Source: Muribaculaceae bacterium
GTDB lineage: Bacteria; Bacteroidota; Bacteroidia; Bacteroidales; Muribaculaceae
Reading direction: 5' to 3'
NCBI GenBank assembly: GCA_017935045.1
Contig: JAGBIJ010000032.1
Location: 1-37,556 of the forward strand
DNA length: 37,556 nt
The translations under genes and the position numbers were made by a program. The number at the start of each line of letters is the position of its first letter. Position 1 is the first letter of the stretch. Shown here piece by piece: positions 6,312 through 36,614 of the stretch. Under the pieces are notes generated by a model. It had not been told where the DNA came from. It saw only the letters and a list, made by a program, of their open reading frames with translations, and did not search any database.

Positions 6312-6397
6312 TAAAGTAATACAATTATTAAAATTTACTTTTATTGTTTATGATTAGTAATTTATTTATAAAGTAATAATATAATAAAATAACATCC

Positions 6398-11294: not shown

Positions 11295-11312
11295 TTTGCA
11301 GTTTGCAAAATT
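11256..11312. promoter_or_regulatory. Candidate operator of the XRE regulator
   Basis: A perfect palindrome GCAAATTTGC (11256-11265) is followed by AAATTTGCAGTTTGCAAA (11292-11309), which repeats the TTTGC/GCAAA half-sites over the -33 element. This placement suits autorepression by the adjacent HTH protein. This is inference from position and symmetry. Confidence 0.4.
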
Positions 11313-11325
11313 ATGATTACATTTG
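11295..11325 (+). promoter_or_regulatory. Promoter of the XRE regulator gene
   Basis: TTTG at 11295-11298, exactly 19 nt of spacer, then TACATTTG at 11318-11325. This is a textbook Bacteroidota promoter. Transcription would start near 11329, giving a leader of about 28 nt before the ATG at 11357. Confidence 0.7.
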
Positions 11326-11356
11326 CATATCCTTTCAGTAACACTATTTTAGCCCT

Positions 11357-11851: not shown

Positions 11852-12190
11852 ATTCAATTTTATTCAATCATTAAGACTGAGTGCATTTTCAACTATTTTC
11901 ATAGCTTTCTTCGTCCTTATCCATTTTGTCCATTTTTCTTATTCGGTCGTTGGTTGTGAGGCAATTTAGAGGCTGTTTAAAAACAAATGTAAATTAACCA
12001 TCCTTCCGGTTCTTCCATAGTAGTAACTTTATTGAGCTTATACAGGCCATTCATATTATTTTCGCCTTGCGTCCGTAGCGCACACACTCTCTGTATCTTT
12101 TTTCGTATTCCTATCCTCTTAATCCGGTTTGCCCTCTCCCACTCGTTTGTTCACTCCTGGTGCATGTCCCTTGCATTGTAATCGTCCGAT
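11852..12190. other. Gene-free pyrimidine-rich gap
   Basis: No gene seen. The plus strand from about 11880 to 12170 is rich in C and T, like the stretch at 6560-7240. The string GAGGCTGTTTAAAAAC near 11970 resembles ends of some insertion sequences, but there is no partner end or transposase. The gap runs into the ddl promoter. Confidence 0.5.
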
Positions 12191-21201: not shown

Positions 21202-23628
21202 TCAGATGAAGAGGTTTAGAGTGGCCGAATCAGCGCGGTTCATGTATGTGGCCACGCCGCCGATGGATACGTTGTCAAGTAATTCCTCTTTCGTTACCCC
21301 CATTACGTCCATTGACATCTGGCAAGCGATAAATTCTACTCCGGCAGCTATGGCTGCATCGCGTAGAGCTTCAAGAGACTCGACGTTGCGTTTCTTCATT
21401 ATGTGACGCATCATTCGCGGGCCGATGCCGGCCATGTTCATTTTTGATAGAGACAGATGGCGCGAGGAAGATGGGAGCATGAAGGAGAACATGCGCGCGA
21501 AAAAGTCCTTTTTAGTGTGCGGGCAGCGTTCTTTTTTGATTACGTTCAGCCCCCAGAAAGTAAAGAAGATTGTGACCTTGGCTCCGGTTGCTGCAGCGCC
21601 GTTGGCCAGCACAAAAGTAGCCAGCGCTTTGTCAAGGTCATCGGAGAACATGATGAATGTCTTTCTGTTTTCAGTGCATGCTCCGCTCTGTGCTTGCGTT
21701 GATTGGGTCGCTTTTGCGATTGTGACGGTGTGGATTCCTGCTTTAGAGGATTTCGAGATGAAGCGGTGGCCTGTAGACTGACACCAGGCTTCGGCATCGC
21801 GTGGAAAACCCGGATCGGTGGCTCGGATGCATACGTATGAACCATCGGTTGCGTTGTCCATTGTCTCGCGCAGTTTCATAATCGGCCCGGGGCATGAGAG
21901 TCCGCAGGCGTCAATGGCAATGGGCGGCGTGTCAGGCGCGGGAGATATGTCGCGGGAAGGCTTTGCGGTCGGAGCCGGGAGTGTGGCTGTGGCGGCGCGG
22001 TATGTCTTGAGTCCGCCTATCAGGTTGCGCACATCGTTGTATCCGTGTTGGCGCAAAATACAAGAAGCCAGGTATCCGCGCAGTCCGACGCCGCAAAAGA
22101 CTACTATGGGGCGTCCGGCTGGTATCTTTTCCAGAGAGTCGCGGATGCTGTCCAGAGGTATGTTGATTGCGTTCGGGAGAGAGCCGGTAGCGTACTCTTC
22201 ATTAGTGCGGACATCGATCAGGGTAATGGAGCCAGGGGCTGCATCCCGCAGTTCCCGCCAGTAAATCGGATCCATTCGTCTGGATATGATATTGTCTGCT
22301 ACATATCCGGCGACAGCTACGGGGTCTTTGGCAGAGGAATATGGGGGTGCGTAGGTGTGTTCGGTGCGGATCAGGTCGGCAATGGCGCCGTGGCTTTTGA
22401 TCAGGCGTGCTATTGTGTCTATGCGTTTATCCACACCTTCATAACCTACTGCCTGGGCGCCGAGGATAAGGCCCGATTCCGGTGCGAACAGAAGCTTGAT
22501 GGTAAGAGGTGTGGCTTCCGGATAATATCCCGCGTGGGAGCTGGGATGGACAGTTGCCGACAGATACGGTATGCCGAGCTGCTGCAGGCGTTTGGCGGAA
22601 TGTCCGGCCGCAGCGACAGTGAGATCGAATACTTTTGCGATGGATGTACCGATAGCTCCTTCGTATTCCAGGCGGTCGCCGAGGGCCATGTTGTCGGCTG
22701 CGATGCGCGCCTGGCGATTGGCCGGGCCGGCCAGATAGTTGAGCCATGGCTCTCCGCCGATCGGATGCGGGTACTCTATTACGTCGCCCACGGCATAGAT
22801 GTCCGGCGCCGAGGTGCGCAGATAGCTGTCTACTGCGATGCCGCCGCGCGGGCCGGTCTTGAGACCTGCTTTTACAGCGAGCTCGGATGCCGGCCTTACT
22901 CCTATGGATAAAATGATTATGTCGGCTTCAAGCGTACTGCCTGAAGCGAGTGTGACTCCGATTGCGCCGCCGTTGTCAGAGAATGAAGTGACTGCAGTGT
23001 CAAGCATCAGGTTGACTCCCTTTTCGACAAGGTGGGCGTGGACGATGGCTGCCATAGAGAAGTCGATTGGCGCCATGACCTGTGAGGACATCTCTATGAG
23101 AGTGACGTCGGCGCCCCGGTCACTGAGATTCTCGGCCATTTCCAAGCCGATGAATCCGCCGCCGATGACTATTGCGCGGCTTACGTGACGCGAAGCCAGG
23201 AAGCTATGGACAGCATCGGTATCGGCTACGTTGCGGAGAGTAAAAATACCGGGAAGCTCAATTCCAGGGAGCGGGGGAACGAAGGGTTTGGCGCCCGGCG
23301 AGAGCAGCAGCCGGTCATAGGATTCGGTGTAGACGGCGCCGTCCGGGCCTTTGATGTCCACCGATTTTGAGTCGGGGTGGATAGCTGTCACTTCGGAATT
23401 GGTGCGCACATCGATATTGAAGCGTCGGCTGAATGACCGGGGAGTCTGGACAAACAGCCGGTCGCGTGAGGATATAGTCCCGCCTATATAATAGGGGAGT
23501 CCGCAGTTGGCGTATGATATGTGTTCGCCTTTTTCGTAAAGTATGATTTCATCGTTTTCGGCTATGCGTCTGAGGCGGGCGGCGGCAGTGGCGCCTCCGG
23601 CTACGCCGCCGATTATAAGGTGTTTCAT
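21202..23628 (-). CDS. CoA-disulfide reductase-rhodanese-TusA-DsrE fusion
   Basis: Four-domain sulfur-handling protein of 808 aa. Residues 1-445 form an FAD/NAD(P)H pyridine nucleotide-disulfide reductase of the CoADR/persulfide reductase type, with GGVAGGATAAARLRR for FAD and the redox Cys42 in NCGLPYY. A rhodanese domain follows (about 455-550; Cys512 in FCGVGLRGY). Next comes a TusA-like domain (about 570-645; Cys575 and Cys579 in CGLSCPGP). Last is a DsrE/F-like domain to the end (Cys769 in ACQMSMD). The domain chain suggests passage of sulfane sulfur between cysteines and reduction of persulfide or polysulfide with NADH. The start is ATG at 23628; an in-frame TTG upstream is actually part of the promoter. 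It lies after the PPTase gene but has its own promoter and terminator. Confidence 0.85.
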   Translation of the reverse strand: MKHLIIGGVAGGATAAARLRRIAENDEIILYEKGEHISYANCGLPYYIGGTISSRDRLFVQTPRSFSRRFNIDVRTNSEVTAIHPDSKSVDIKGPDGAVYTESYDRLLLSPGAKPFVPPLPGIELPGIFTLRNVADTDAVHSFLASRHVSRAIVIGGGFIGLEMAENLSDRGADVTLIEMSSQVMAPIDFSMAAIVHAHLVEKGVNLMLDTAVTSFSDNGGAIGVTLASGSTLEADIIILSIGVRPASELAVKAGLKTGPRGGIAVDSYLRTSAPDIYAVGDVIEYPHPIGGEPWLNYLAGPANRQARIAADNMALGDRLEYEGAIGTSIAKVFDLTVAAAGHSAKRLQQLGIPYLSATVHPSSHAGYYPEATPLTIKLLFAPESGLILGAQAVGYEGVDKRIDTIARLIKSHGAIADLIRTEHTYAPPYSSAKDPVAVAGYVADNIISRRMDPIYWRELRDAAPGSITLIDVRTNEEYATGSLPNAINIPLDSIRDSLEKIPAGRPIVVFCGVGLRGYLASCILRQHGYNDVRNLIGGLKTYRAATATLPAPTAKPSRDISPAPDTPPIAIDACGLSCPGPIMKLRETMDNATDGSYVCIRATDPGFPRDAEAWCQSTGHRFISKSSKAGIHTVTIAKATQSTQAQSGACTENRKTFIMFSDDLDKALATFVLANGAAATGAKVTIFFTFWGLNVIKKERCPHTKKDFFARMFSFMLPSSSRHLSLSKMNMAGIGPRMMRHIMKKRNVESLEALRDAAIAAGVEFIACQMSMDVMGVTKEELLDNVSIGGVATYMNRADSATLNLFI

Positions 23629-23645
23629 CGGTTCTATATTTTTTG

Positions 23646-23676
23646 CAAAGGTAGGTCTGAAATCTGAGATTTGCAA
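23646..23676 (-). promoter_or_regulatory. Promoter of the sulfur-fusion gene
   Basis: On the minus strand TTG (23676-23674), a 20-nt spacer, then TACCTTTG (23653-23646). Transcription would start near 23642, 14 nt before the ATG at 23628. The -33 TTG could be mistaken for a start codon. The promoter begins 45 bp after the PPTase stop, so the fusion gene need not depend on the NRPS operon. Confidence 0.65.
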
Positions 23677-23721: not shown

Positions 23722-24324
23722 CTATGATGTCATCTCGTCCGGGCTAATTCTTGCTATTGTGGCTACGAAATCGGCTTCCACGGTAGAGCAGACAGAAAGA
23801 GACGGGGGAAGGGCAGAAGTATCGAGGCGCTCTATATCAATGGAATTGTCGAGCTTGAAGACCGCTTCTTTTACAGTCCAGATCTTCGTGAATTCCAGGG
23901 CCGGGTCGGGGGAGCCGGCAATCAGCCGGCGTTCGGCGGGACTGTAATACAGTTCGGCTACTGCTTCGGTCTGCGAATCGGGATTCTGAATCCGCTCTAC
24001 GTCGCAGGCGGCGGGTATGTCGGAGACCAGGGCCATCGCTGCCTCAGGGCAGTGGCTCAGACTGATATGCAGACCGGGATAACCGCGCAGAAAAGGCTTG
24101 CCGAGGGTTGTGCGGTCAAGCCGCAAGCCATAAGGGGAGATGCCGCAATGTCTCAGCAGCAGATTTTCCAGCAGCTCCCAGGCCAGAGCGGACTGGAGCC
24201 GGTCGATGGGAAAAACGTATGAGAGAGTATCGCGGCGTCTCCAGAGGGGGAGCCGCGATATTCTCTCATCGAGAGTGGGGAGATCCCTTTCGGGATTTAT
24301 CGGACGTATAGAGTATTCTGTCAT
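23722..24324 (-). CDS. Sfp-type 4'-phosphopantetheinyl transferase
   Basis: Transfers the phosphopantetheine arm of CoA to the active-site serine of carrier domains, converting the apo-NRPS to its holo form in the cytosol; 200 aa. Family motifs are GKP (75-77), SLSHC (88-92), the Mg-binding CDVE (Asp108, Glu110), and WTVKEA (149-154) with the catalytic Lys/Glu. It is slightly shorter than Sfp (about 224 aa). The ATG overlaps the NRPS stop in an ATGA arrangement (24321-24324), which argues for coupled translation and for the NRPS as its substrate. It is the last gene of the five-gene operon; no clear terminator follows before the next promoter. Confidence 0.92.
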   Translation of the reverse strand: MTEYSIRPINPERDLPTLDERISRLPLWRRRDTLSYVFPIDRLQSALAWELLENLLLRHCGISPYGLRLDRTTLGKPFLRGYPGLHISLSHCPEAAMALVSDIPAACDVERIQNPDSQTEAVAELYYSPAERRLIAGSPDPALEFTKIWTVKEAVFKLDNSIDIERLDTSALPPSLSVCSTVEADFVATIARISPDEMTS

Positions 24325-27300
24325 TCGGGAGCCATGGCGGCGTCAAAGTATCCGAGGCCGGCTATGGCCGTGATGAAGTTGCGTATATAGGCTGTCGACG
24401 TGGGACTCCAGCGGAAATCCAGACGGAACAGAATCTCGTTGGTAAACTTGGGCGAGCAGCCTATATAAGCGGTGTTGCCGTCGGCCGACTGGTAAGCCAC
24501 CAGAGGCTGGAGCAGCGTGACGACATCGGAGCCGGAGGCCATCGCTTCGTTCAGGCGGGCGGCAAACAGTCCGGGCTCCACACATTCTATCTTCTTAGGC
24601 AATACCTCGTTCATCACACCGATGACGTCTGCCATAGGCACGTGATGGTTATTGAGCGGATGGAACACTACGTTGTCAGTCGGAGTCGTGGCGAGGCGGA
24701 GGATGGACCAGGACAGTTGGTCGACCGGAGAGAACTCGCATGAAGAGTCAAGATGGCTGTAAGGTATGCATCCGAGCGCCAGATAAGCGCGAAGCATGCC
24801 CATGAAGGCGTTGCTCTGGAAGTTAGCCTGAAACTCGCCGTCGGATTCGCGTGGCGAAATGTTGCCCACACGCATTATCTTGGCCTGAATCCGGTCCTCC
24901 GCTATGGCTCCGAGTATGATTTTCTCAGCGTCATATTTCGATTTCACGTACTGGTTTGAGAGCCCCTGGCCGAGATCGAGCGACTGCTCGGTCAGAACCT
25001 TGGCCGCTGCTACGGAGGCTTCGGCGTCGCCGGCCACCGAGACGGTGGAGATATGCACCAGGCGCCGGTCATGGGCCGCGCACCAGTCCACTATGTTGCG
25101 TACCGTATCGACGTTGGCATGCTCAATCTCGTTGCCCGGAGCGAAGTGCTTCACGCTGGCCGCGCAGTTGATGACAGTGTCTATGGCAGAAGCGTCAAGC
25201 GCCGCGAGGGTAGCGGCTTCGGTCAGGTCGCCGGTCACGATGAAAATACGCTTGTCCCAGAGATGCTCGTAGGTATCGCCGAAGTAGTAGAACAATAACG
25301 TGCGCACGCGAGAGGAAGCGTCGAAGCTCTTGGAGCCGCGCACCACGCAATAGACGCGGGCGTCGGTGGCGTCGAGCAGCCAGTGAAGCACATGTACGCC
25401 GAGGAAGCCGGTGGCTCCTGTCAGCAGCACATTGCCTACGGACTGAAGCTCGCCGTCGTTGAAGGCGGCTATGGTATTTTTGCGCAGTATGTCGCCGAAC
25501 TCTTCTGCCGGGGTCTCGGCAGCGCAAGTCCCGGCGGCCGGAGCGGCTGTCTGCGGGGTCTCGCTCAGATGGGCGGCCAGGGCGCGCGGCGTCTTGGTGG
25601 CGAACAGGTCCTTATAGCTTATCTTCAGACCGCTCTGCGAGAGAACGGCCACTACCTTGATGGCATTGATGGACGTGCCGCCTATCTTGAAGAAATCATC
25701 GTTGGCGCCGACGCGCTCCAGGCCGAGCGTGCGGCGGAATGCCTCGGCAATGGCGGCTTCGTCGCCGGGCGCAGGCTCCACGTATTCGGCCAGTTTCTCC
25801 AGCACTGGCTCGGGCAGGTGCTTGCGATCGAGCTTGCCGTTGGGCGTGACGGGAATCTTATCTACGGGATTGAAGCTGTCCGGCACCATGTAGTCGGTAA
25901 GGTGGCGCGTCAGGTGGGCGCGCAGCTCCTCCTGATTCACATCCTGACCTTCGTACCAGATGCAGAGGTGGTCTATATTTTGAATCCGGCATACATTGGC
26001 TACAGACATCTTCACGCCGGGGAAGGCGTTGGCCACGCTCTCTATCTCCCCTAACTCTATGCGCAGGCCGCGCAGCTTGACCTGATGGTCGATGCGGCCC
26101 AGGACATCGATATCGCCGTCGGGAAGCCAGCGGGCAAGGTCGCCGGTGCGGTATGCCGGAGCCTCGCGGAAGGTAATGAAGCTCTCAGCCGTCTTCTCAG
26201 GCAGGTTGTGATAACCTTTGCCCACACTGCGGCCGGCAATTACCAGCTCTCCTATGGCGCCCACGGGCAGCTCCCCGCCCCATGCGTCGCAGATATATTC
26301 GCGGTAATTATAGAACGGAGGGCCTACAGTGACCGGCTTGCCGCTCTGCAGAACGGCATGGTTGGAGCCTACGGTTGTCTCCGTAGGGCCGTATTCGTTG
26401 ACAATCAGCCCCCTGAAGCCGGCGCTGTCCAGCTTGGGCAGCAGCGATGCGGGAATTGCCTCGCCGCCTATGTTCAGCAGCTTGCAGCCGGCTATCGCTT
26501 CGCAGAATTCCGGCAGTTCGAGCATGGCGGCCAGGCGGCTCGGAGTGGCATCGAAGGCTTCGACTCCGGTGCGCTTCATCAGGTCGGCCAGCATGGCTAC
26601 GTCCTTACATTCCTCCTCGTCGGCCAGTACAAGCGTATGGCCCGAAGTGAGCGACGTGCCGAGGTCTACGTGCGAGGCGTCGAACGAGATAGTCACGATG
26701 AGCATGTTGACCTTAGGCTCGTCGGCACCCATAGGGGAGTATATCAGTTTGCGGTAGCCGTAGAGATAATTGACGGCGGCGCCGTGGTGGATGACCACAC
26801 CCTTGGGGCGGCCTGTGCTGCCTGAAGTGTATATAAGATATGCGGGGTCGTCGGGCTCAATCTCCACTCCCGGACGAGAGGCGTCGGGGCAGGCGAGCAG
26901 CGTGTCGATGTCTATGGCCTTGCCGGGGAAGGAATCGAGTCTGGTGGCGGTAGTGACTATCCATTTGGCATCGGAATCCTCCGTAATCAGCTTGATGCGC
27001 TCCACCGGGTATTCCGGATCACATGGTATGTAGGCCGCGCCAGTCTTCATCACACCGTAGATGGCGGCTATCAGCCGGGAGTCGCGCGGCAGAAGCACAA
27101 CTACTTTGTCGCCCCGCTCCACGCCGTTGGCGCGCAGGGCATTGGCTATGCGGTTGGCCTCGGCGTCAAGCTCCGCATAAGTGAGACTCCGGTCGCGGGC
27201 TACCAGCGCAAGCCTGTCGGGACATGCGTCGGCCTGTAGCTCAAAGGCGCCGTGGTAAGAAGTGTATGGCACATCGCCGCACTCCCCGTCGCGTATCGGC

Positions 27301-30300
27301 TCAAGCTCCACGTCTTTGGCCGGAGAGAGTAGAGCGGCTTCGCGGACAGTGGCGGCGCAGACATTGCCGGATGCGGCAGAGCCGACCATGTCAAGCAGCA
27401 CCGCCATATCGGCGTTGCTGTAGAGCGAGGCGTCGTATTCCAGCTCCAGCCGGTATTTGCCGGGAGCTGGAGTAAATATCAGAAGCGTCAGCGGCACCTT
27501 GGCAGTATCGAGAGCTACCGGTATCTTTTCGTCGGAAAGCGGTCCGTCGGCGGCATCAAGCGACACACCTCCTTCATATACATACATTATTTCGGGTCTC
27601 AGGCCGAAGCGGCGCACAATCTCTGTGAAGGGATAGAAATCGTATCCGCGGGTGGTATTGAACTGATTTTGCAGCTCCAGAGCCATCTGTGCCGGAGTAG
27701 TCTTGGCTGCCTGCGCCGGGGAGACGCGGGAAACGACAGGGAGAGTCTTGACAAACATGCCGATATCGTCGATAAGGCGCACGTCACTGCGGCCATTGTT
27801 TACCGTAGTGATGGCGAGTGTCTCGTTGCGCGTCAGGCGGTGGAGGGTCTGCATGAAGGCCGAGAGGAAGAAGTTGCTTGGAGTCACGGCGTTGTCACTG
27901 CAGAAGCGGTCTATGTCTGCCGCATCCAGCTCGGCTGCCACACGGAGCAGAGTGCCTTGAGGCACCGCTTCGGGCGACGAGCTATGGGAATAGACAGTGG
28001 TCTCCGCTTCGCCAAGCAGTCTGTCAAACCATTCTTCCGCTTCCTCGTACTCGGCGCCGCGCAGCAGCGCAGCCTCGTCGTCGGCCCACTCGAAGGCGGA
28101 GTATTCCTCCTCCGCGAGATTCTGGCCGGCGTAAGCCCTCGACAGAGAATCGAAGAAGACCATGGCCGAGACACCGTCGAAGACGATATGATGGAAGTCC
28201 ATGAAAAGCCAGGCATCATCGGCGTGGCGTACTATGGCGAAACGATACAGCGGCTCGGCGAAAAGGTCGAACGGACGGACAAGCGCCTGCATATCAGCGC
28301 GCTCCGGAGCATGGTCGAGCGTGATTTCATCGACTTCCACATTTTCGACCTTCATGCGCTGCTGCATGATGTCGCCGTTGCGGTTGACGAAACGCGCCCC
28401 CAGGGCCGGATGTGCCTTGACGGCCTCGGCTATGGCCTTCTTCAGCCGCTCTAAGTCTGTGTCCCGCTTGATGCGGATGGCCTGGGCCACATTGTACTGC
28501 AGGGCGTCGCGGTTGCGCTCCCAGTCTATGAGTACGCCGCGCTGATTTTCGGTAATGGGGTAATACTTGCGCTTGGCGGCGGTCTTGGCCGGAGCGGCGG
28601 AAGTGGCGGCGGAAGCCTGCTCAAGAGCTTTGATCAGGCCGCGTACGGTCGGGTCGGCCATGGCAGCCTTGGAGGTCATGCGCACGTCGCGCTTCTTGGC
28701 GATGGTGGCCACAAGGCGCATGGCCAGCAGAGAGGTAAGGCCGACCTTCAGCAGATTGGTCGTGACACCGAATGAGTCGTGGCCCAGCACGCCGGCGACT
28801 ATTTCCGTCATCTCGCGTTCATCGTCTGTAGCAGGAGGCACTGTCTCCTCGGCCACTTCGATTTCAGGCAGGGGGAGAGCCTTGCGGTCTATCTTGCCGT
28901 TCTGGTTCATCGGCAGACTGTCAAGCTTCATCACGGCTGCCGGAATCATAAATTCCGTCAGATCTGCCGACATGAAGTCGCGCAGCTCTTCGGGTGAGAC
29001 ATCCATACCCTCTTTGACCGCATAGTAGCCCACAAGCTGGTCGTTGCCGCCTACTGATTTGACGGCGGCGGCAAACTGACGCACCGCCTCGTGGCGGGTG
29101 GCGACGGCCTCTATCTCGCCTAACTCGATACGCAGGCCGCGCAGCTTGACCATGCCGTCCATGCGGCCCATGAACTGTATGTCGCCGTCCTCGTTCCAGC
29201 GTACCAGGTCGCCGGTACGGTAGGCGCGTACGCCGTCGATGGTAATGAATTTTTCGGCTGTCAGCTCCGGGCGGTTGAGATAGCCTACAGCTACGCTGAC
29301 ACCTAAGATGACCAGCTCGCCCGGCACACCGCGAGGCACCCGGCGCCCGTATCTGTCGAGTACGCGTACCTCATATCCGGGGATGGGCCGGCCTATGACG
29401 GTGCCGTCTGTCTCGCCCTGAGGCATGTAGCAGGTGGCGAAGACGGAACACTCCGTGGGGCCGTAGGCGTTGGCGAAAGCGAAGGGAAGCCGTCCCACAG
29501 GGGGCAGCTTCTCGCCGCCGCAGGCAAGCCAGCGCAGCGAGGGGAACTCGTAAAGGGTAATCATCTGCCATGCTATCTGTGTGGTAAGGAAGGCCGCTGT
29601 AATGCCGGTCTTCACGAAGAAATCGTGCATGGCGTCGAGGTCATGGCGCAGCTCTTCGTCCAGGATATAGAGGGTGGCGCCGGACATAAGGGTGGGGTAG
29701 AGATCCATCATGTGGGCGTCGAAGCCGAAGTTGGCGTATGCAGGCACGCGGTCCTCCTGGCCGAGGGGCACGAGGTGCATGTAGTCGTGGCAGAAGTTGA
29801 GCAGGTTGGCGCGTGTCAGCGTCACTCCTTTAGGCTTGCCCGTGGAGCCTGAAGTATAAAGTATGACAAAAGAACCGTCTGGATTGGCCGGCCATTCGTC
29901 TACGGGCGCTGCCTCGCCCTGCGTGAGCGCGCCGGCGTCCAGGATTGTGCCGGCGAAGCCCGGCAGAGTCCGGCCGGCCAGACCGCCGGTAGTCACTATG
30001 AAAGTCACGCCGGCATCTCCGGTCATAAACGTAAGGCGCTCCTCAGGGAAAGAGGGGTCGAGCGGCATGTAGGCCGCGCCGGCTTTCATAAGGGCAAGCG
30101 GAATCAGCACCATCCATTGCGAGCGCGGTATCATCACACCGACGGCCATGCCCGGTGTGACTCCGGCTGCTTTAAGGTTGTGAGCCATGACCGTAGAGAG
30201 ACGGTCGATCTCGGCGTAGGTATAGCTGGCGTCCGGAGCGACGAGAGCCGTTTTGTCCGGTATCTCGCGCGCAAGCGCCGCTATCGCGCCCTCTATGGGC

Positions 30301-31586
30301 ACAGAGCGGTCGAAATCGAGTGCCGGAGCGCTCTCCATATCTTTGAGTTCCGCATCGGCGGCCGCGTCAGTCAATCTGAAACTGCTGACGGCACTCTCGG
30401 CGTTGGCCGGGTCGCAGAGCTGGTCCAGGGCCAGGTCGAGGGTGCGGACCAGGCGGTCGACCGTAGCTTCGGTATATATGTCTGAACGCCAGATGACATC
30501 GACATCCACGCCGTCGTCCGCAAGAAACATCTGTATGGAGACAGGCACGCCTGTGTCGCCGTTGTCAAGACGTTCCGGAACCATGCCCTCCACGAGTGAG
30601 TCCATGTCAAGCAGGCGGCCCTGATAGCCGAACAGTACATTCTGCTCGTAGCCGGTCATTGATGAGAAATCGGCGAACGAGAATAGATCTTTGGCGCGGG
30701 TGTCACGGCGCTGTTCCTTCATTTCTGCGACGAGAGCCTGAGCCGTCACGTCTTTGCCGAGATGACAGCGTACCGGCAGTGTGCGGACTATCATGCCGAC
30801 GGTGTTGTCGGTGTCATGGGTATTGCGCCCGTGGTAGATTGTAGTGAAAAGCACATCATCGCGTCCGGTAAAGGCGCCTAAGGCGATGCCCATGGCGGCG
30901 TTGGCTACTGCCGAGTTTCCCTTGAAGCGCGACAGCGGGGTGGCAAGGCGGAACACCTTGTGGCTGAACTGCTGCTCCACGCCCTTGGCATCGGAGTAGA
31001 GGGCGGCTCCGTCGGTATCGAAGTCGCCGAATGTACGGACGTAGTATTCGCGCTGAGACTCGTATTCGGCACCGGAGCGGGCTGCCGTCTCGCGTTCGGC
31101 CAGAGAGAAGCAGTCTACGGCCTCAGGCTCGATTTCGCCCCCTTTCAGGGCAATGTCCAGATCACGTAGGAATACTCGCATCGATGAACCGTCATATATA
31201 ATATGGTGTATGACCATGGTCAGCCAGACATGGCTCTCTGCCCGGATGACCTCCAGACGGCACATACGGTCGCCCGGCACGTCGATATGGCTGAGTACGC
31301 CGGCCTTGATTTCTTCAAACTCGGCATCTGTGGCTGTGCGCACCGGCACGTCGGGCAGAGTGGCGCCGTCCCACTCCATGCGTGCCTCGCCGTTCTCGTC
31401 AGTGGCGATTGCCACATTGAACGCGGGATGGCATGCGAGTACTTTTCTTACTGCCGCCTGCAGGCGCTCAGGGTCGGTATCGGCGGAGAAGCGGAAGGCG
31501 TAAGCTATATGATAGGCGAGGTCTTCGCGGTAGGCCGAGCCGAGATAAATGCCCAGCTGGCTCTGGCTCAATGATGATTGTTTCAT
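24321..31586 (-). CDS. Two-module NRPS with terminal reductase domain
   Basis: Nonribosomal peptide synthetase, 2421 aa, order C-A-PCP-C-A-PCP-R. C1 has HHIIYDG at 127-133. A1 (about 440-900) has TSGSTGKPKG near 576. PCP1 carries its serine at 952 in an unusual VGLTSLLAM setting. C2 has HHIVFDG at 1132-1138. A2 (about 1480-1930) has TSGSTG at 1587-1592. PCP2 has Ser1972 in the canonical-like IGGTS. The end is a Lys2-type thioester reductase with TGATGFLG near 2050 and the SDR pair Tyr2213/Lys2217 in YVKSK. There is no epimerase, methyltransferase or thioesterase domain. The expected product is a dipeptide released reductively as aldehyde (or alcohol), possibly N-acylated because the protein starts with a C domain. 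My alignment to GrsA gives binding-pocket residues DAMFAGAVFK (A1) and DAVDNGEVGK (A2): A1 apolar, A2 perhaps a basic substrate. Confidence 0.95.
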   Translation of the reverse strand: MKQSSLSQSQLGIYLGSAYREDLAYHIAYAFRFSADTDPERLQAAVRKVLACHPAFNVAIATDENGEARMEWDGATLPDVPVRTATDAEFEEIKAGVLSHIDVPGDRMCRLEVIRAESHVWLTMVIHHIIYDGSSMRVFLRDLDIALKGGEIEPEAVDCFSLAERETAARSGAEYESQREYYVRTFGDFDTDGAALYSDAKGVEQQFSHKVFRLATPLSRFKGNSAVANAAMGIALGAFTGRDDVLFTTIYHGRNTHDTDNTVGMIVRTLPVRCHLGKDVTAQALVAEMKEQRRDTRAKDLFSFADFSSMTGYEQNVLFGYQGRLLDMDSLVEGMVPERLDNGDTGVPVSIQMFLADDGVDVDVIWRSDIYTEATVDRLVRTLDLALDQLCDPANAESAVSSFRLTDAAADAELKDMESAPALDFDRSVPIEGAIAALAREIPDKTALVAPDASYTYAEIDRLSTVMAHNLKAAGVTPGMAVGVMIPRSQWMVLIPLALMKAGAAYMPLDPSFPEERLTFMTGDAGVTFIVTTGGLAGRTLPGFAGTILDAGALTQGEAAPVDEWPANPDGSFVILYTSGSTGKPKGVTLTRANLLNFCHDYMHLVPLGQEDRVPAYANFGFDAHMMDLYPTLMSGATLYILDEELRHDLDAMHDFFVKTGITAAFLTTQIAWQMITLYEFPSLRWLACGGEKLPPVGRLPFAFANAYGPTECSVFATCYMPQGETDGTVIGRPIPGYEVRVLDRYGRRVPRGVPGELVILGVSVAVGYLNRPELTAEKFITIDGVRAYRTGDLVRWNEDGDIQFMGRMDGMVKLRGLRIELGEIEAVATRHEAVRQFAAAVKSVGGNDQLVGYYAVKEGMDVSPEELRDFMSADLTEFMIPAAVMKLDSLPMNQNGKIDRKALPLPEIEVAEETVPPATDDEREMTEIVAGVLGHDSFGVTTNLLKVGLTSLLAMRLVATIAKKRDVRMTSKAAMADPTVRGLIKALEQASAATSAAPAKTAAKRKYYPITENQRGVLIDWERNRDALQYNVAQAIRIKRDTDLERLKKAIAEAVKAHPALGARFVNRNGDIMQQRMKVENVEVDEITLDHAPERADMQALVRPFDLFAEPLYRFAIVRHADDAWLFMDFHHIVFDGVSAMVFFDSLSRAYAGQNLAEEEYSAFEWADDEAALLRGAEYEEAEEWFDRLLGEAETTVYSHSSSPEAVPQGTLLRVAAELDAADIDRFCSDNAVTPSNFFLSAFMQTLHRLTRNETLAITTVNNGRSDVRLIDDIGMFVKTLPVVSRVSPAQAAKTTPAQMALELQNQFNTTRGYDFYPFTEIVRRFGLRPEIMYVYEGGVSLDAADGPLSDEKIPVALDTAKVPLTLLIFTPAPGKYRLELEYDASLYSNADMAVLLDMVGSAASGNVCAATVREAALLSPAKDVELEPIRDGECGDVPYTSYHGAFELQADACPDRLALVARDRSLTYAELDAEANRIANALRANGVERGDKVVVLLPRDSRLIAAIYGVMKTGAAYIPCDPEYPVERIKLITEDSDAKWIVTTATRLDSFPGKAIDIDTLLACPDASRPGVEIEPDDPAYLIYTSGSTGRPKGVVIHHGAAVNYLYGYRKLIYSPMGADEPKVNMLIVTISFDASHVDLGTSLTSGHTLVLADEEECKDVAMLADLMKRTGVEAFDATPSRLAAMLELPEFCEAIAGCKLLNIGGEAIPASLLPKLDSAGFRGLIVNEYGPTETTVGSNHAVLQSGKPVTVGPPFYNYREYICDAWGGELPVGAIGELVIAGRSVGKGYHNLPEKTAESFITFREAPAYRTGDLARWLPDGDIDVLGRIDHQVKLRGLRIELGEIESVANAFPGVKMSVANVCRIQNIDHLCIWYEGQDVNQEELRAHLTRHLTDYMVPDSFNPVDKIPVTPNGKLDRKHLPEPVLEKLAEYVEPAPGDEAAIAEAFRRTLGLERVGANDDFFKIGGTSINAIKVVAVLSQSGLKISYKDLFATKTPRALAAHLSETPQTAAPAAGTCAAETPAEEFGDILRKNTIAAFNDGELQSVGNVLLTGATGFLGVHVLHWLLDATDARVYCVVRGSKSFDASSRVRTLLFYYFGDTYEHLWDKRIFIVTGDLTEAATLAALDASAIDTVINCAASVKHFAPGNEIEHANVDTVRNIVDWCAAHDRRLVHISTVSVAGDAEASVAAAKVLTEQSLDLGQGLSNQYVKSKYDAEKIILGAIAEDRIQAKIMRVGNISPRESDGEFQANFQSNAFMGMLRAYLALGCIPYSHLDSSCEFSPVDQLSWSILRLATTPTDNVVFHPLNNHHVPMADVIGVMNEVLPKKIECVEPGLFAARLNEAMASGSDVVTLLQPLVAYQSADGNTAYIGCSPKFTNEILFRLDFRWSPTSTAYIRNFITAIAGLGYFDAAMAPE

Positions 31587-31602
31587 ATCGGTTAGTTTTT
31601 TA

Positions 31603-33327
31603 TTATTCGTTTGTCGGGTTGGCGGACCACGTCATAGTCAGTATGTTCTGATTGAACATGTATTCATACTTCATGGTATCGCAGCTTTTCTTGGCTATCA
31701 GCAGGCCGAGGCCGGTCTTGGGATCCTGCTCTACAGGATTGAAGGGGCGGCCGGCGTCATGCACTACGGCAGTCACGGCGCCGGACTGCAGTGTAATACG
31801 CATATCTACGGAGGCAGCCTTGCGGTTCAGCCGATCGGCATGCTCGATGATATTCTTCAGTATCTCCTCGCATGTCACGCCGATGCGGAACCGCAGACTT
31901 TCGGAAACGCCCTTGTCCCGCAGCCATTTGTCAGCCTCTACCAGCTGCGTGCCGGCATTCCGCATGTTAGGCACTATGCTGGTGTCGTAGATCTGGCTGG
32001 CCGACTGCCGGGGTATGAGGAAGAAAGGCATCTTGCCCTCCTTGCGGCGCATGACAGCCGGCAGAAGGATGATGAGCAGGACAGCCTGACCGATGGCGAA
32101 GCCCCACCATACGCCTGTGCCCCCTACGGCCATTACCCAGAAGAAAAGCATAGGCAGCATGGGCTGTCCGACAGAGACTATCATGGCCTGACGTGTGTTG
32201 CCGTAGACCTGATAGACCGGTATGAGCAGTCCGACGGCGCACTGAAGTATGATATTGAAGGCGAAGGCCGGTATGGCAGCCCGCAGCATCTCCAGCGTGG
32301 GGCCGCCGGTAATGCTGAACAGCGAGCCTATCCACTGCGGAAAGAGAATCATGAGGCCGGCATATATGGCCAGGCTGACTCCCAGAAATCCGTATGCTTT
32401 GCCCAGCACCATGGCGACGCCACGGTTGTCGTCCGAACCGGCCAGAATGGAGGCCACGGGCTGAAATGAGTCGATGACACCGGTAAGGATAATCATCGAG
32501 AGGCGCAGCAGATACATGCAGACGGCGAATACTATGACTCCGGCCGTGCCGAGATACTGTATGGCCACTATGTTGCAGACGAATATCTGTACAGACATGA
32601 GCATGGCGGTAAAACCCGAAGGCACGCCGTTGCGCATGATGGCAGGCAACTCGCGCATATTTTTAGCAGCGGTAAACCGCAGGGCGCCTTTCTTACGGAA
32701 GTGTCCCAAAAGTATGGCGATAGCCGGCACGTAGCTGATGACGGTAGCCGCGGCGGCTCCGCCCATACCCCAGCCGCACAGGGCTATGAAGATGTAGTCG
32801 AGTATCAGGTTGGTGGCGATGCAGACGGATACCGCCACGGTTACGCGCTTGGGCTCGCCGTCGACGGCCACAAAGAGCTGAAGCACTATCATCAGCATAT
32901 ATATGGCCGCTGAGGGGATCGTGATTATCATGTAGGAGCCGGCGTAGCCGATAATGGAAGTGTCGGGACACAGCAGCCGCAGTATGGGCTGGAAGAATAT
33001 CAGTCCGGCTGCGCCCAGAAGCAGTCCGGTAACTGTGGCCGAGGAGACGGAGAGCGAGAAGATACGCGAGGCATGGTCCCGGTCGTGCGCGCCTATGGCT
33101 TTGCCGGCGAGCAGCGTGCCGCCGACACCGAGCAGCAGGCACAGCGAGAAGTAGAGCTGCAGTATGGGCATGGCTATGTTGATGGCAGACATGGCCGCGT
33201 CGCTGATGAACCAGGTAACCATCAGCCCGTCGACGAACGCTCCCATCTGGGAGGCGGCCACTGTCATTACCGAGGCGAACAGAAAGCTGCGGAAAGCGCG
33301 GCCTACAAGATAGGAATCACGTTTCAT
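31603..33327 (-). CDS. MATE exporter fused to an RsbW-like HATPase domain
   Basis: 574-aa fusion. Residues 1 to about 445 are a MATE-family drug/metabolite exporter with about 12 hydrophobic helices in the inner membrane. After a short basic linker (MRRKEGKMPF), residues about 455-570 form a GHKL ATPase domain of the anti-sigma kinase type. Its N-box is EEILKNIIEH (Asn492), its D-box DAGRPF (Asp524), and GLGLLIAKK is the nucleotide lid. Normal MATE proteins end near 450 aa. The gene lies between the sensor-phosphatase and the NRPS with gaps of 10 and 16 bp, so it is the likely exporter of the NRPS product. The fused domain suggests that export, or another partner, is controlled by STAS binding or phosphorylation. 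ATP binding is inferred from motifs only. The reading frame is continuous across the junction. Confidence 0.88.
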   Translation of the reverse strand: MKRDSYLVGRAFRSFLFASVMTVAASQMGAFVDGLMVTWFISDAAMSAINIAMPILQLYFSLCLLLGVGGTLLAGKAIGAHDRDHASRIFSLSVSSATVTGLLLGAAGLIFFQPILRLLCPDTSIIGYAGSYMIITIPSAAIYMLMIVLQLFVAVDGEPKRVTVAVSVCIATNLILDYIFIALCGWGMGGAAAATVISYVPAIAILLGHFRKKGALRFTAAKNMRELPAIMRNGVPSGFTAMLMSVQIFVCNIVAIQYLGTAGVIVFAVCMYLLRLSMIILTGVIDSFQPVASILAGSDDNRGVAMVLGKAYGFLGVSLAIYAGLMILFPQWIGSLFSITGGPTLEMLRAAIPAFAFNIILQCAVGLLIPVYQVYGNTRQAMIVSVGQPMLPMLFFWVMAVGGTGVWWGFAIGQAVLLIILLPAVMRRKEGKMPFFLIPRQSASQIYDTSIVPNMRNAGTQLVEADKWLRDKGVSESLRFRIGVTCEEILKNIIEHADRLNRKAASVDMRITLQSGAVTAVVHDAGRPFNPVEQDPKTGLGLLIAKKSCDTMKYEYMFNQNILTMTWSANPTNE

Positions 33328-33337
33328 TAGGTTTGGC

Positions 33338-35653
33338 TTATTTGTTGAGTAATAGGGTTATTTTCAGAATATTGCGGTCAGCCTCGCGGCGGTATTCCAC
33401 ACCATCGGAGAGATTGCGCACAAGGTAGATGCCCAGACCGCCTATGGGACGTTGCTCCAGCGGGGCGCCGGTGTCAGGTCCGGCTGCGGCAGTGGGATCG
33501 AAAGGTATGCCTGAGTCTGATATCTCCAGAGTAAGGGCGCCCGATGCCGCGTCATGTGAGCAGTCCAGCGCTATCTTGCCTTCCACTCCTTCCGGATAGG
33601 CATAGTTTATTACATTTACCACAGCTTCCTCAAGCACCAGATTGATGCGTCCGCGTGTCTCGGCGTCCAGGCCGTAACGTGTAGCGATAAGCTCGGTGTA
33701 GGCCGGGAGGCTGCTGATTTCCGAGAGTGTGTTGGCAAAGACCTTGTGCAGCGGAGTATGGCTGTCTTCATGCTTGAGTCGCAGACATAGCATTGTGAGA
33801 TCGTCGCTCTGGTTCACGCCGCCCACGAAGTCTGTCACGGAAGACTCTACGTGTGTAATTAGTTCCTTCGGAGTGTCGGCAGAGTGCTGCGACAGTGTAG
33901 CAAGCATCCGGTCATCGCCGTAGAGTTGACGCGACGCGTTCTCTGCTTCGGTCAGTCCATCCGTATAGAGGAACAGCGACTGATCCGGCTGCAGGCTGAT
34001 ACTTTCCTGCTCATAGACGAATCCTTCGATTACGCCGACCGGGATATTCTCTTTGCAAGGCAACAAGGCGACGCCTCCTGTGCTTACCGATACAGGCGGA
34101 TTATGGCCTGCGTTGCAGAAAACAAGATGTCCGGTAATCAGATCAAGCACACCTACAAACATGGTCACGAACATGCATGTATCGTTGTCCTTCAGTACCG
34201 TATCGTTGATGACTGACAGGATTTCCGCCGGAGAGTCACACCGGCCTGCCGTATTGCGGAACAGTGTACGGGTTACGGCCATGAACAGCGAGGCCGGCAC
34301 CCCCTTGCCGGACACGTCGCCTACAGTGAAGTACAGTTTCGAGTCGCGGATGAAGAAATCGTACAGATCGCCTCCCACCTCTTTGGCCGGACGTATAATG
34401 GCATACAGCTCAAGATTGTCGCACTGCGGGAAGGGGGAGAAGCAGTGAGGCAGAAGACTCATCTGGATGCTGCGCGCTATGTGCAGCTCGCTCTCTATGT
34501 GCTCCTTGGCCTTGGTCGTCTCCACAAGCCGCTCCATTTGCTGGCGCAGCGATTTCTGCATCTCTCCGAAGGCGTTGTTCAGCCGTCCGATGTCGTCGGA
34601 AGGTCTCATGGAGGGCAGCTGTACGTTCAGGTCTCCGTCCGAAATCTTCGATGCGGCGCCGGTCAGCCTCGCAAGCGGCTTCATGGCGTACAGGACTACC
34701 AGCCTGACAAGTATAATGATTATAATTAGCCCGGCGAACAGGAATATTACCGCTCTGACAGTGACCAGGTCGAGGCGCGACATTATGGCGCCGTACGGGC
34801 ATACGCTGCAGATGGCCCAGCCGGTGCCGGGGATGGGCTCGTAGACCACCAGAGCGTCTTCTCCCGCGATGTCGGTATGTCTCGATCCTTTTTTATGCGC
34901 CAGCATCTCGTAGCCTATCTCCGCGATATGGGGACAGCCTTTCTCCCGCGAATAAGCGTAAATGTCCTTTTTCAGAATCAGAGCGCTGTCAGGATGGGCC
35001 ATAAAGACGCCTTTGTCGCTGAGGATGAAAGCATAGCTGTCGTCTATGGGGCGCAGACGGGCGATTTCGCCGGACAGGGCTCCCAGCGAGACGTCGGCCG
35101 TGAGTACGGCTGTGATTTCGCCGTCCGCATCGTGCAGCGGATATGAGCATGTGACCATCATCTTGTTGCCTCCTCCTGTGTCGAAATAAGGCTCTGACCA
35201 GACGGCCTTGTCCTGACGCAGCGCTTCGGTGTACCAGGGCATACGGGTATAATCATAGTCCGTGTCGCCGAGGTGCTTGCGCTGCCATGTGCCGTCGGCT
35301 CCGCGGCAGACGTACTCCATCAGCCTGACACCGTCCGCACCGGGTCGCAGCGCTATGCAGCCGCCCATTATCAGAGAGTCGGTGTCCACAATCTGCTCCA
35401 CCATCTGCATCAGTCCGGACGAATCTCCGAGCCTCTTTTCCACCACAGTGGCGGAATTGGCAAGGTGGCCTTCGACGCGGGATATCTCGCTGTCGAGCTT
35501 GTCTACCGAATTGTCTACTATCAGTGTCGCATACAGCGACACGAGCCTTTCTTCGCGTTCGGCTCCATAGCGCAGGAAGATCGCGCCGATAGCACAGAAG
35601 ATAACTATGATTATCAGCGAGATATATAGGCTGAGTTTGTTGGCCAGAGACAT
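33338..35653 (-). CDS. Cache-HAMP-SpoIIE phosphatase-HATPase sensor protein
   Basis: 771-aa inner-membrane signalling protein. TM1 lies at about 8-28. A periplasmic Cache-type sensor (about 35-290) contains DYDYTRMPWYTEAL and WSEPYFDTGGG, typical of double-Cache ligand sensors. TM2 lies at about 295-320 and a HAMP segment at about 320-370 (MKPLARLTGAASKISDGDL). A coiled coil leads to a PP2C/SpoIIE phosphatase (about 400-620) with metal-binding GGDLYDFF (Asp429), GDVSGKGVPASLFMA and NQSDDLTML. The end is an RsbW-like HATPase (about 640-771) with N-box EEAVVNVINYAYPEG (Asn680), DSGIPFDP and GGLGIYLVRNL. Both halves of a partner switch sit in one chain: the phosphatase can activate a STAS protein, and the kinase-like domain can phosphorylate or bind it. 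The STAS gene is 11 bp upstream. Confidence 0.9.
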   Translation of the reverse strand: MSLANKLSLYISLIIIVIFCAIGAIFLRYGAEREERLVSLYATLIVDNSVDKLDSEISRVEGHLANSATVVEKRLGDSSGLMQMVEQIVDTDSLIMGGCIALRPGADGVRLMEYVCRGADGTWQRKHLGDTDYDYTRMPWYTEALRQDKAVWSEPYFDTGGGNKMMVTCSYPLHDADGEITAVLTADVSLGALSGEIARLRPIDDSYAFILSDKGVFMAHPDSALILKKDIYAYSREKGCPHIAEIGYEMLAHKKGSRHTDIAGEDALVVYEPIPGTGWAICSVCPYGAIMSRLDLVTVRAVIFLFAGLIIIIILVRLVVLYAMKPLARLTGAASKISDGDLNVQLPSMRPSDDIGRLNNAFGEMQKSLRQQMERLVETTKAKEHIESELHIARSIQMSLLPHCFSPFPQCDNLELYAIIRPAKEVGGDLYDFFIRDSKLYFTVGDVSGKGVPASLFMAVTRTLFRNTAGRCDSPAEILSVINDTVLKDNDTCMFVTMFVGVLDLITGHLVFCNAGHNPPVSVSTGGVALLPCKENIPVGVIEGFVYEQESISLQPDQSLFLYTDGLTEAENASRQLYGDDRMLATLSQHSADTPKELITHVESSVTDFVGGVNQSDDLTMLCLRLKHEDSHTPLHKVFANTLSEISSLPAYTELIATRYGLDAETRGRINLVLEEAVVNVINYAYPEGVEGKIALDCSHDAASGALTLEISDSGIPFDPTAAAGPDTGAPLEQRPIGGLGIYLVRNLSDGVEYRREADRNILKITLLLNK

Positions 35654-35664
35654 CGGCAGATATA

Positions 35665-35970
35665 TCAGTCTTGGATAGTGAATAGTTTATGAAATCCGGT
35701 AATGGTAAAGATGTTGCGGATTTCACTGCTCACATGCTTCAGCACGAGAGAGCCGCCCTTGGCCTTGACATCCTTGAGTATGCTGAGGAAGATACGCAGA
35801 CCAGAACTGCTGATATACTCCAGTTCTCCACACTCTATGACAATGTCTTTGTCGGCATTTTCATGTATAGGCGCAAGCTGTTTGTCACATTCCGCGGCCT
35901 GGAGAGTATCCAGGCGTCCTTTCAAGACAACCGTAAGGTTTCCGTTTTCATTAATGATTGCTATTTCCAT
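35665..35970 (-). CDS. STAS-domain anti-sigma factor antagonist
   Basis: 101-aa single-domain STAS protein of the SpoIIAA/RsbV type. The conserved phosphorylation loop is YISSSGLRIF, where Ser56, just before Gly, corresponds to Ser58 of SpoIIAA. In the family, the unphosphorylated form binds an HATPase anti-sigma kinase, and phosphorylation releases it. It is the first gene of the five-gene minus-strand operon and precedes the sensor phosphatase by 11 bp. Two possible HATPase partners are encoded downstream (in the sensor and in the MATE fusion) and no sigma factor is present. I infer that it carries the signal between those two membrane proteins. Start ATG is at 35970, after a leader of about 125 nt. 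Confidence 0.9.
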   Translation of the reverse strand: MEIAIINENGNLTVVLKGRLDTLQAAECDKQLAPIHENADKDIVIECGELEYISSSGLRIFLSILKDVKAKGGSLVLKHVSSEIRNIFTITGFHKLFTIQD

Positions 35971-36182: not shown

Positions 36183-36614
36183 ATGAAAAAGATGCAAAAA
36201 CTTAAAGTCTGCAACTGGGCATTGCTGATAATGATTATACCGGTTCTTGTGTCCGGCATCGAGCTGGAGGCTACATCCGGCAGCGATCCTGCCTCTGTGC
36301 GGTATCATATCGTCATAGCCTCAATTTTTTTATTGTTGTCAGTATGGCATATATCCCTCAATCTCTCATGGAGCGGCTGGTTTAAGAAATTCTCGCGGCT
36401 GAAAAGCCCGGTAACCAGGATACTGTGGTGGCTTTTCCTTCTCACTGCCTTATCCGGAATCGCGGCTGAAATACATTGGCTTGCGACCTACTCACATTCG
36501 CCCGTAGGAGCAATACATGGCAAAATAGGTTTTGCCATGCTGATAGTAGCTATAGGCCATACGCTCAAGCGTCTCCGCTTCTTCGCTTTCAAACGGCCTC
36601 TAAACAGACGCTGA
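36183..36614 (+). CDS. Four-helix membrane protein, DUF4405-like
   Basis: 143-aa integral membrane protein with four hydrophobic segments (about residues 11-27, 42-60, 81-97, 115-128). Histidines occur near or within helices: SVWHISLNL, EIHWLATYSH, GAIHGKIGF and IGHTLKR. This pattern is typical of small DUF4405/cytochrome-b-like proteins that can bind haem, but haem binding is inference. It stands alone with its own promoter, divergent from the NRPS operon, so a shared regulatory region is possible. A methionine at residue 4 is an alternative start. A 7-bp hairpin (36631-36647) follows the stop. Confidence 0.6.
   Translation: MKKMQKLKVCNWALLIMIIPVLVSGIELEATSGSDPASVRYHIVIASIFLLLSVWHISLNLSWSGWFKKFSRLKSPVTRILWWLFLLTALSGIAAEIHWLATYSHSPVGAIHGKIGFAMLIVAIGHTLKRLRFFAFKRPLNRR

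Follow-up and report, generated by a model that had tools for sequence, protein, structure and literature searches.

Five minus-strand ORFs, lying in the window (the whole 37,556-nt stretch of DNA that was analyzed) at the places and spacings first described, form an NRPS-signalling operon. From the STAS gene towards the PPTase gene, they are separated by gaps of 11, 10, and 16 nt, followed by a 4-nt overlap between the NRPS and PPTase genes. Based on Pfam domain calls, each above the curated cut-off, the operon encodes a lone STAS protein, a membrane sensor, an exporter, an NRPS, and a PPTase (Table 1), so that ORF coordinates and Pfam content bear out the genes, domains, places, and gaps given in the preliminary description. 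The NRPS comprises two AMP-binding, two Condensation, and two PP-binding domains, with NAD_binding_4 (R) at the end. A sigma factor was said to be missing beside the operon, and none was found in the 24 window ORFs scanned.

Table 1 Genes and domains of the NRPS-signalling operon, with coordinates in the window and supporting evidence
Feature	Coordinates	Strand	Evidence
STAS-domain-only protein, anti-sigma-antagonist type, 101 aa	35665..35970	-	Pfam STAS 62.3 bits; NCBIfam TIGR00377 73.2 bits (cut-off 53.45)
Sensor, membrane dCache-HAMP-SpoIIE/PP2C-HATPase_c_2, 771 aa	33338..35653	-	Pfam: dCache_1 78, HAMP 43, SpoIIE 181, HATPase_c_2 89 bits
Sensor dCache ligand-binding part, residues about 83-283	34805..35407	-	PF22673 86.4, PF02743 78.4 bits
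Sensor SpoIIE/PP2C phosphatase domain	33776..34345	-	PF07228 180.6 bits; 184.4 bits in genome search
Sensor HATPase_c_2 (RsbW-type), probable STAS kinase	33356..33730	-	PF13581 93.2 bits; motifs complete
MATE-family exporter with C-terminal HATPase_c_2, 574 aa	31603..33327	-	MatE (PF01554) 87.4 and HATPase_c_2 56.1 bits, single ORF
Exporter HATPase_c_2, predicted STAS reader/docking domain	31627..31938	-	PF13581 60.1 bits
NRPS C-A-PCP-C-A-PCP-R, 2421 aa	24321..31586	-	Pfam and own domain models
NRPS R domain, TGATGFLG and YxxxK motifs	about 24342-25454	-	NAD_binding_4 (Pfam); motifs read in translation
4'-phosphopantetheinyl transferase (PPTase), 200 aa	23722..24324	-	ACPS 41.8 bits

The operon contains three parts of an Rsb/SpoIIA-type module. 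The STAS antagonist exceeds the TIGR00377 cut-off and carries an invariant serine at position 55 (23/23 aligned STAS proteins); this residue (S55 of the SSSG loop; codon 35806-35808) is likely the phospho-acceptor by analogy with known STAS proteins. The PP2C/SpoIIE phosphatase is part of the sensor, whose translation includes GGDLYDF, GDVSGKG, and SDDLTML, which we take to be PP2C motifs. RsbW-type HATPase_c_2 domains occur twice, and the sensor copy has complete motifs: the N-box E and N and the G1 D and G are kept in 19/19 homologous domains, and the lid R in 17/19. All three parts are shared with the sigma-B partner switching (Rsb) of Bacillus subtilis, as outlined in the cited section of PMC8256260. 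Sensor domains of chemoreceptors and kinases are among the solved structures related to the sensor dCache by sequence, and some of them, judging by name, are presumably from amino-acid chemoreceptors. Amino-acid sensing was considered and set aside, the amino-acid motif not being seen conserved in 17 aligned Cache domains.

The preliminary description had left room for a dedicated sigma factor elsewhere in the genome. In the source genome (2.22 Mb, 89.9% complete, i.e., about 10% unseen), the three hits to the sigma-B/F/G model (TIGR02980) were partial and scored 21-28 bits, under the cut-off of 234, so that no cognate sigma factor over the cut-off was found there, as in the window ORFs. The operon differs from Rsb in this respect and in the fusion of its HATPases to a sensor and an exporter. 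A hidden sigma/anti-sigma partner was likewise rejected: the STAS, HATPase_c_2, SpoIIE, and sigma-B/F/G searches of this genome gave nothing over the cut-off beyond the operon parts, a STAS match within a 568-aa frame on contig C36 (probably a SulP transporter), and a second SpoIIE match (of the two, the one among the matches listed is the sensor's). The source genome and four others (G689, G695, G699, and G700) each have exactly two HATPase_c_2 matches, in the sensor and the MATE protein, and a single STAS outside transporter-sized frames, that of the operon. Three more genomes (G266, G687, and G707) show the two-partner pattern among the matches listed, further HATPase_c_2 matches being weaker than these. 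Because no other HATPase_c_2 match and no other STAS outside transporter-sized frames was found in the five genomes, a hidden anti-sigma or sigma partner of known type is unlikely.

Among solved structures, BH2163 chains match the window MATE protein best by sequence. Its 27 homologues of like architecture are 23-37% identical to it, and the MATE-HATPase of G266 is 28% identical. Among 38 aligned MATE HATPase domains, the E and DxG are kept in all and the N in 37, and the first GxG (ATP-lid) glycine is missing in 31. Taken with the intact motifs of the sensor HATPase, the frequent loss of this glycine fits an arrangement of one kinase and one reader. The window copy retains the E, the N, the DxGxPF motif, and the full TGLG lid motif, and could therefore be a kinase. 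It is conceivable, although improbable, that the exporter HATPase is an input: depending on how active transport is, it would phosphorylate or capture STAS, with the Cache sensor removing the phosphate, so that the state of export would be read into synthesis. The near-invariant E and N and the GxG kept in the window make ATP binding or kinase activity possible, but the sensor already has kinase and phosphatase domains, the lid glycine is gone in most of these HATPases, and such a reading names no downstream target.

The idea that MATE-HATPases are a general trait of Bacteroidota found no support in two profile searches whose counts are lower bounds, since few candidates were scored per genome and the best matches were listed. 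The phylum-wide search (E<=1e-45, 395 genomes) recovered the source genome only, as a lower bound; in the order-wide search (295 genomes), only G266 besides the source genome reached through the HATPase, among the matches listed. Two further matches (L036 and L037) reach residues 518-524 but lack the HATPase by Pfam. The MATE tree, in which branches are long, suggests that the HATPase was present early and was lost in a clade of plain MATE proteins.

Co-occurrence of the signalling genes with the NRPS, put forward earlier as a check, is conserved in distant Bacteroidales: all five genes lie on one contig, in another gene order, in six genomes (G266, G689, G699, G700, G687, and G707). Recurrence of the set in divergent genomes with different orders shows that the linkage is more than chance. 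An NRPS was present within the stretch examined at 24 of the 39 MATE-HATPase loci tallied, and 20 of these 24 also have STAS and/or the sensor. Distant genomes keep the genes, but the eight listed genus-mates of the source genome lack a MATE protein of this subfamily. The ten pairs formed from the MATE protein, MATE HATPase, STAS, sensor, and R domain show correlated distances across up to 20 operons (r from 0.41 to 0.89; 0/1000 permutations as high in each pair), which shared descent would explain as well.

We consider it very improbable that the signalling genes merely travel with the NRPS and regulate something unrelated. SpoIIE is widespread in the order (221/295 genomes), and sensor-STAS pairs and MATE-HATPases also occur apart from an NRPS, for example in G694, where the pair and the MATE-HATPase are on different contigs and there is no condensation domain. 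However, tight linkage recurs with shuffled order in several lineages, and only a few bases separate the genes in the window.

The exporter is not HATPase-fused in every NRPS-linked circuit. Seven sister loci (L126, L132/L139, L133, L136, L137, L138, and L140) have a plain MATE protein alongside the sensor, STAS, and NRPS, and in four of their genomes (G717, G753, G835, and G731) the single HATPase_c_2 match is the sensor's. A sensor-STAS pair can therefore accompany an NRPS without a MATE HATPase, and passing of STAS between two HATPases, proposed earlier as a general scheme, is not universal. These loci favor an alternative that is less probable but deserves serious attention, in which the sensor sets STAS phosphorylation and STAS acts on a non-HATPase target (the NRPS, the membrane part of the MATE protein, or a factor acting at or after transcription), the MATE HATPase being an accessory sink or tether that is dispensable in some lineages. 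Such an output would resemble that of SypA, which itself has an unknown target according to the cited section of PMC8256260. This alternative does not account for the HATPase that the fused operons carry on the exporter, with its E, N, and DxG conserved, nor for its being the only second partner found in five genomes; the early HATPase and later loss suggested by the long-branched MATE tree also count against it.

Domains, motifs, recurring linkage, and the lack of another HATPase_c_2 or lone STAS in several genomes were computed, and from these we infer phosphorylation, docking, the direction of control, the ligand, and the product. The reading that we put forward, at about an even chance, is an operon for biosynthesis and export that a STAS switch controls post-translationally, and in which a SypE/SypA-like pair has a STAS protein that docks on the exporter. 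The sensor dCache would face the periplasm and bind a ligand, possibly the exported product itself, shifting the balance between the sensor HATPase as STAS kinase and the SpoIIE domain as STAS phosphatase. Unphosphorylated STAS would dock on the C-terminal, cytoplasmic HATPase of the MATE protein and change exporter activity, and phosphorylated STAS would not dock there. The NRPS, activated by the PPTase of the operon, would make a short peptide, which the R domain would free as an aldehyde (or alcohol) and the MATE protein would export.

The invariant STAS serine and the precedents of SypE/SypA and MlaB argue for this reading. Against it count the MATE-HATPases without an NRPS (15/39 loci within the stretch examined, and four genomes with no condensation domain), G701, where a MATE-HATPase was found but neither SpoIIE nor any STAS other than in a transporter-sized frame, and the TGLG of the window. 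Split loci also weigh against it: in G698, G703, and G715, the sensor and/or STAS adjoin the NRPS with no MATE-HATPase within the stretch examined, and the MATE-HATPases are on other contigs. The proposal that the circuit directly controls production or export of the peptide thus stands in part, supported by conserved linkage and by the lack of another partner in five genomes, but weakened by the plain-MATE sisters and the loci without an NRPS; of the two predicted effects, the evidence favors control of export over that of production.

The preliminary description regarded a sigma-free STAS circuit as unusual, a view contradicted by SypE/SypA and HmpUVW (PMC8256260) and SiaC-SiaD (PMC8457831), here as elsewhere compared from excerpts of the cited papers. 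SypE/SypA of Vibrio fischeri, a STAS circuit with an unknown target (PMC8256260; PMC12826045), likewise combines one protein bearing an RsbW-type kinase and a PP2C phosphatase with a lone STAS, and there the kinase/phosphatase protein sets phosphorylation of the single-domain STAS, as predicted here (PMC8256260). SypE has a REC domain where the window sensor has dCache and HAMP, and the SypE/SypA output is biofilm, the excerpts describing no HATPase-bearing exporter (PMC8256260, PMC12826045). HmpUVW is another STAS circuit without a known sigma target in the cited section (PMC8256260). In SiaABCD of Pseudomonas aeruginosa, a phosphatase-containing set with a STAS-type circuit, the small SiaC acts on a non-sigma target, which is a diguanylate cyclase (PMC8457831); the related NCBIfam model NF038263 matched below its cut-off. 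The STAS protein MlaB of E. coli controls an ABC transporter through MlaF, and the interface includes a site that may be phosphorylated, but its target is an ABC ATPase rather than HATPase_c_2, and its phosphorylation in cells is open in the portion cited (PMC7367683).

STAS circuits with non-sigma targets are thus already known; what is new is a predicted reader fused to the exporter of NRPS operons, and no description of a HATPase-fused exporter in an NRPS operon was found in the open-access literature. More tentatively, we propose that a phospho-switched STAS directly gates a secondary-active exporter through its fused HATPase, an outside-in, transcription-free feedback loop for nonribosomal peptide export that is spread across gut and rumen Bacteroidales and in which an anti-sigma-like domain was turned into a transporter regulatory domain. 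Peptide operons of gut Bacteroidales often include an outside-sensing phosphatase, its small switch protein, and an exporter with a docking-type domain for that protein, and from sequence we predict that export may be gated directly rather than through gene expression. Binding of STAS to the exporter would, if real, widen partner switching beyond the release of sigma factors (and a few other targets) to include the opening and closing of a membrane exporter, and release of bioactive gut peptides could be tuned quickly to outside conditions. Sister operons with and without the MATE HATPase offer a ready natural comparison for the role of that domain.

Indigoidine is an NRPS product. In Vogesella indigofera, the RsbW-like domain of TciK/TciR regulates this pigment with no sigma target shown; the regulator is a REC-RsbW response regulator, its authors report the lack of an RsbV homologue, and the cited section mentions no exporter (PMC12826045). 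Closer to the window NRPS are AusA/AusB and the gut dipeptide-aldehyde NRPSs (e.g., rup), which, as excerpted, share a short NRPS, a terminal R domain, and their own PPTase (PMC12327764), and by likeness to the rup/AusA type the predicted product is a peptide aldehyde or pyrazinone (PMC12327764). With two A-PCP modules, a terminal R domain, and a PPTase, the operon belongs to the general R-domain dipeptide-aldehyde type, but its NRPS cannot be assigned to AusA: the best NCBIfam match, AusA (NF047350), scored 1055 bits, under the cut-off of 2500, and no operon protein reached the AusA or AusB (NF047349) cut-off. Compared to the domain architecture of AusA, the window NRPS has an extra N-terminal condensation domain, and unlike AusA/AusB and rup, its operon includes signalling genes and a HATPase-bearing exporter. 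Adenylation pockets were read at what we take to be the code positions. Acidic residues at two positions of the A2 pocket (DAVDNGEVG, unlike the DMKNMGTVS or DAQSRGCVA of relatives) give a weak hint of a basic second residue. The A1 pocket (DAMFAGAVF) resembles the DAMF.G of many relatives.

ORF calls and domain searches bore out the preliminary description of the operon in the domains, strand and spacing of its five ORFs, which encode a STAS protein, a sensor (dCache-HAMP-SpoIIE-HATPase_c_2), a MATE exporter with a C-terminal HATPase_c_2 domain (fused MATE), an NRPS and a PPTase. The window is the entire contig C45 of its source genome (2.22 Mb, 62 contigs, 89.9% completeness). The expected co-occurrence was also found, with all five genes again together in G266, G689, G699, G700, G687 and G707 (G, compared genomes; L, compared loci). 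The order in G266 (MATE-HATPase, NRPS, sensor, STAS, PPTase) differs from that of the window, and the two MATE-HATPases share only 28% identity. Wider stretches showed the G266 order in the other five genomes; of these, G689, G699, G700 and G687 have a roughly 450-aa ORF separating NRPS and sensor. The order sensor-STAS-MATE-NRPS was found in L046, L047 and L060, and likewise, plus extra genes, in L051. A collection scan using the MATE C-terminus and HATPase as query recovered 36 loci, one from Paenibacillus and the others labelled as Bacteroidales groups (Prevotella, Muribaculaceae, Bacteroides, others) or as two Candidatus genera that we take to be Bacteroidales; many carry a rumen, gut or faecal source label.

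Among 39 MATE-HATPase loci (window counted), which were chosen by two peptide patterns and whose counts are not population frequencies, 24 contained an NRPS in the examined stretch (condensation and adenylation domains were present in 23; in the remaining one, L047, the NRPS is cut off by the contig end). Sensor and/or STAS were present in 20 of these 24 (L040 by tblastn); L043, L045, L064 and L085 showed neither, all except L043 lying near a contig end. A PPTase was within view at 7/39 loci. In the 15 loci without an NRPS, tblastn searches (six STAS queries, four sensor queries; E ≤ 1e-4) found neither partner in 14; the sole exception was L106, where a sensor-like half, truncated by the contig end, directly adjoins the MATE-HATPase. 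Two of the 15 (L065, L071) have the MATE-HATPase after adenylation-carrier proteins. Condensation domains occurred in 9/13 genomes searched, and G694, G701, G710 and G716 carry a MATE-HATPase (a broken copy in G716) but no such domain. The sensor-STAS pair and the MATE-HATPase of G694 are on different contigs, and searches of the G701 genome found no SpoIIE and no STAS apart from one in a 564-aa frame. The MATE-HATPase is therefore not restricted to NRPS operons. Sensor and/or STAS adjoin an NRPS in G703 (L102), G715 (L127) and G698 (L096 and L097, contig ends), where the MATE-HATPase is absent from the stretch and present on another contig; thus, sensor-STAS-NRPS sets are not always accompanied by it in the same place.

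The sensor HATPase domains have invariant N-box Glu and Asn and G1 Asp and Gly (19/19), and keep the three lid glycines (19/19, 18/19, 19/19) and Arg (17/19). The MATE HATPase domains retain Glu (38/38), Asn (37/38) and G1 Asp and Gly (38/38); the first lid glycine is kept in only 7/38, the window copy among these seven. Because the motifs are kept in sensors and the first lid glycine is mostly lost in MATE domains, we read the sensor domain as a predicted kinase and the exporter domain as a predicted ATP-binding reader in most members. The termini of MATE proteins are cytoplasmic, and the exporter HATPase would therefore face STAS.

It had been proposed that STAS is passed between two HATPase domains to control peptide production or export, and this idea stood in part. 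Exactly two HATPase_c_2 matches (sensor and MATE) were found in the source genome, G689, G695, G699 and G700, giving apparently closed pairs in five genomes. The last four have one STAS match each, and the source genome has two, the second within a 568-aa frame. Among the matches listed, G266, G687 and G707 fit the same pattern, with 3, 3 and 1 additional, weaker HATPase_c_2 matches, respectively; their second STAS (562–582-aa frames) is taken as SulP-type. Other genomes of the set, with up to 19 HATPase_c_2 matches (G690), allow no closed-circuit conclusion because they hold many more such proteins.

Plain-MATE sister operons, in which the exporter has no HATPase, are the natural comparison set and a natural experiment counting against this simple model. 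This MATE subfamily (E ≤ 1e-80) occurs in 12/149 genomes of the window's family, fused in three (source genome, G739, G814) and plain in nine. The window locus is patchy in distribution, since none of the eight listed genus-mates has the subfamily in that search. Outside the 39-locus tally, G739 (L129, L144) carries MATE-HATPase, NRPS, sensor and STAS, and G814 (L130) has NRPS, MATE-HATPase, PPTase and a SpoIIE protein; STAS was looked for at L130 and not found. Operons with plain MATE, sensor, STAS and R-domain NRPS were found at L126, L133, L136, L137, L138, L132/L139 and L140 (STAS of L136 and L140 by tblastn). The sensor's HATPase_c_2 is the single match genome-wide in G717, G753, G835 and G731 (completeness 85%, 98%, 99% and 97%, respectively), so sensor-STAS can accompany an NRPS without a second such domain. 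G822 has one match above and one below the cut-off, G792 three, and G704 eight, including a MATE-HATPase located elsewhere. In the MATE-domain tree (64 rows; program warning of long branches, L130 included), the 10 plain rows of the subfamily form one clade adjoining fused L130, nested in a 50-row clade whose remaining 40 rows are fused (96/94). The topology, with its long branches, suggests an early single HATPase fusion followed by loss, which would need fewer changes than separate gains.

Circuits built on STAS proteins but lacking a known sigma target are established or suspected: excerpts of published work describe SypE/SypA and HmpUVW, whose partners may yet include sigma factors (PMC8256260), and SiaC-SiaD (PMC8457831). 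Also published are an E. coli ABC transporter under STAS-protein regulation (PMC7367683) and indigoidine production affected by an RsbW-like response regulator (PMC12826045). An open-access literature search found no publication on a HATPase-bearing MATE or such an NRPS operon. Judged from sequence, the window system resembles SypE/SypA but has a membrane sensor, and its docking site is likely on the exporter.

Translation of the window NRPS (C-A-PCP-C-A-PCP-R) shows condensation HHxxxDG motifs, carrier serines and, in the R domain, TGATGFLG and YxxxK; AusA was the top NCBIfam match, under its cut-off. Dipeptide aldehydes from gut NRPSs convert to pyrazinones, according to excerpts of PMC12327764. 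The window NRPS begins with a condensation domain, which may attach an acyl group or one more residue. Many fused-MATE relatives have A-PCP-C-A-PCP-C-A-PCP-R, unlike the window, so products will differ.

Features in the window and in compared loci (coordinates counted within each)
Feature	Location	Strand	Remark
Divergent ORF	window 36183-36614		212-nt gap from STAS gene, upstream side
PyrNDR-type oxidoreductase (pyridine nucleotide-disulphide), rhodanese, TusA, DsrE-like fusion	window 21202-23676	-	45 nt downstream of PPTase
A-T-rich stretch	window 6001-12000		30-41% GC vs 45-62% in remaining window; island-like
GNAT-type protein	window 8463-10178		within A-T-rich stretch
Weak AMP-binding match, 373-450 aa	L126:14612-15964; L133:2793-4136; L128:2252-3373		under the cut-off; located between NRPS and the plain MATE
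Two adenylation-carrier proteins, then MATE-HATPase	L089:1541-10085; L094:2496-9969		another kind of biosynthetic neighbourhood; L089 also with glycosyltransferase 2 and pyruvyl transferase
MATE-HATPase broken into two ORFs	L108:7916-8969		genome without condensation domain
STAS gene, 450-aa ORF, two tandem C-A-PCP-C-A-PCP-R type NRPS genes	L127:106-16000		second NRPS gene runs past stretch end
SNF (sodium:neurotransmitter symporter family) proteins	L051:8876-10207; L096:8446-9777		within such operons; perhaps precursor amino-acid uptake
Outer-membrane barrel-like proteins (Alginate_exp, OMP_b-brl_3)	L101:5411-6808; L130:7043-9022; L066:477-1823		in or beside operons; L066 match below cut-off; possible outer-membrane exit
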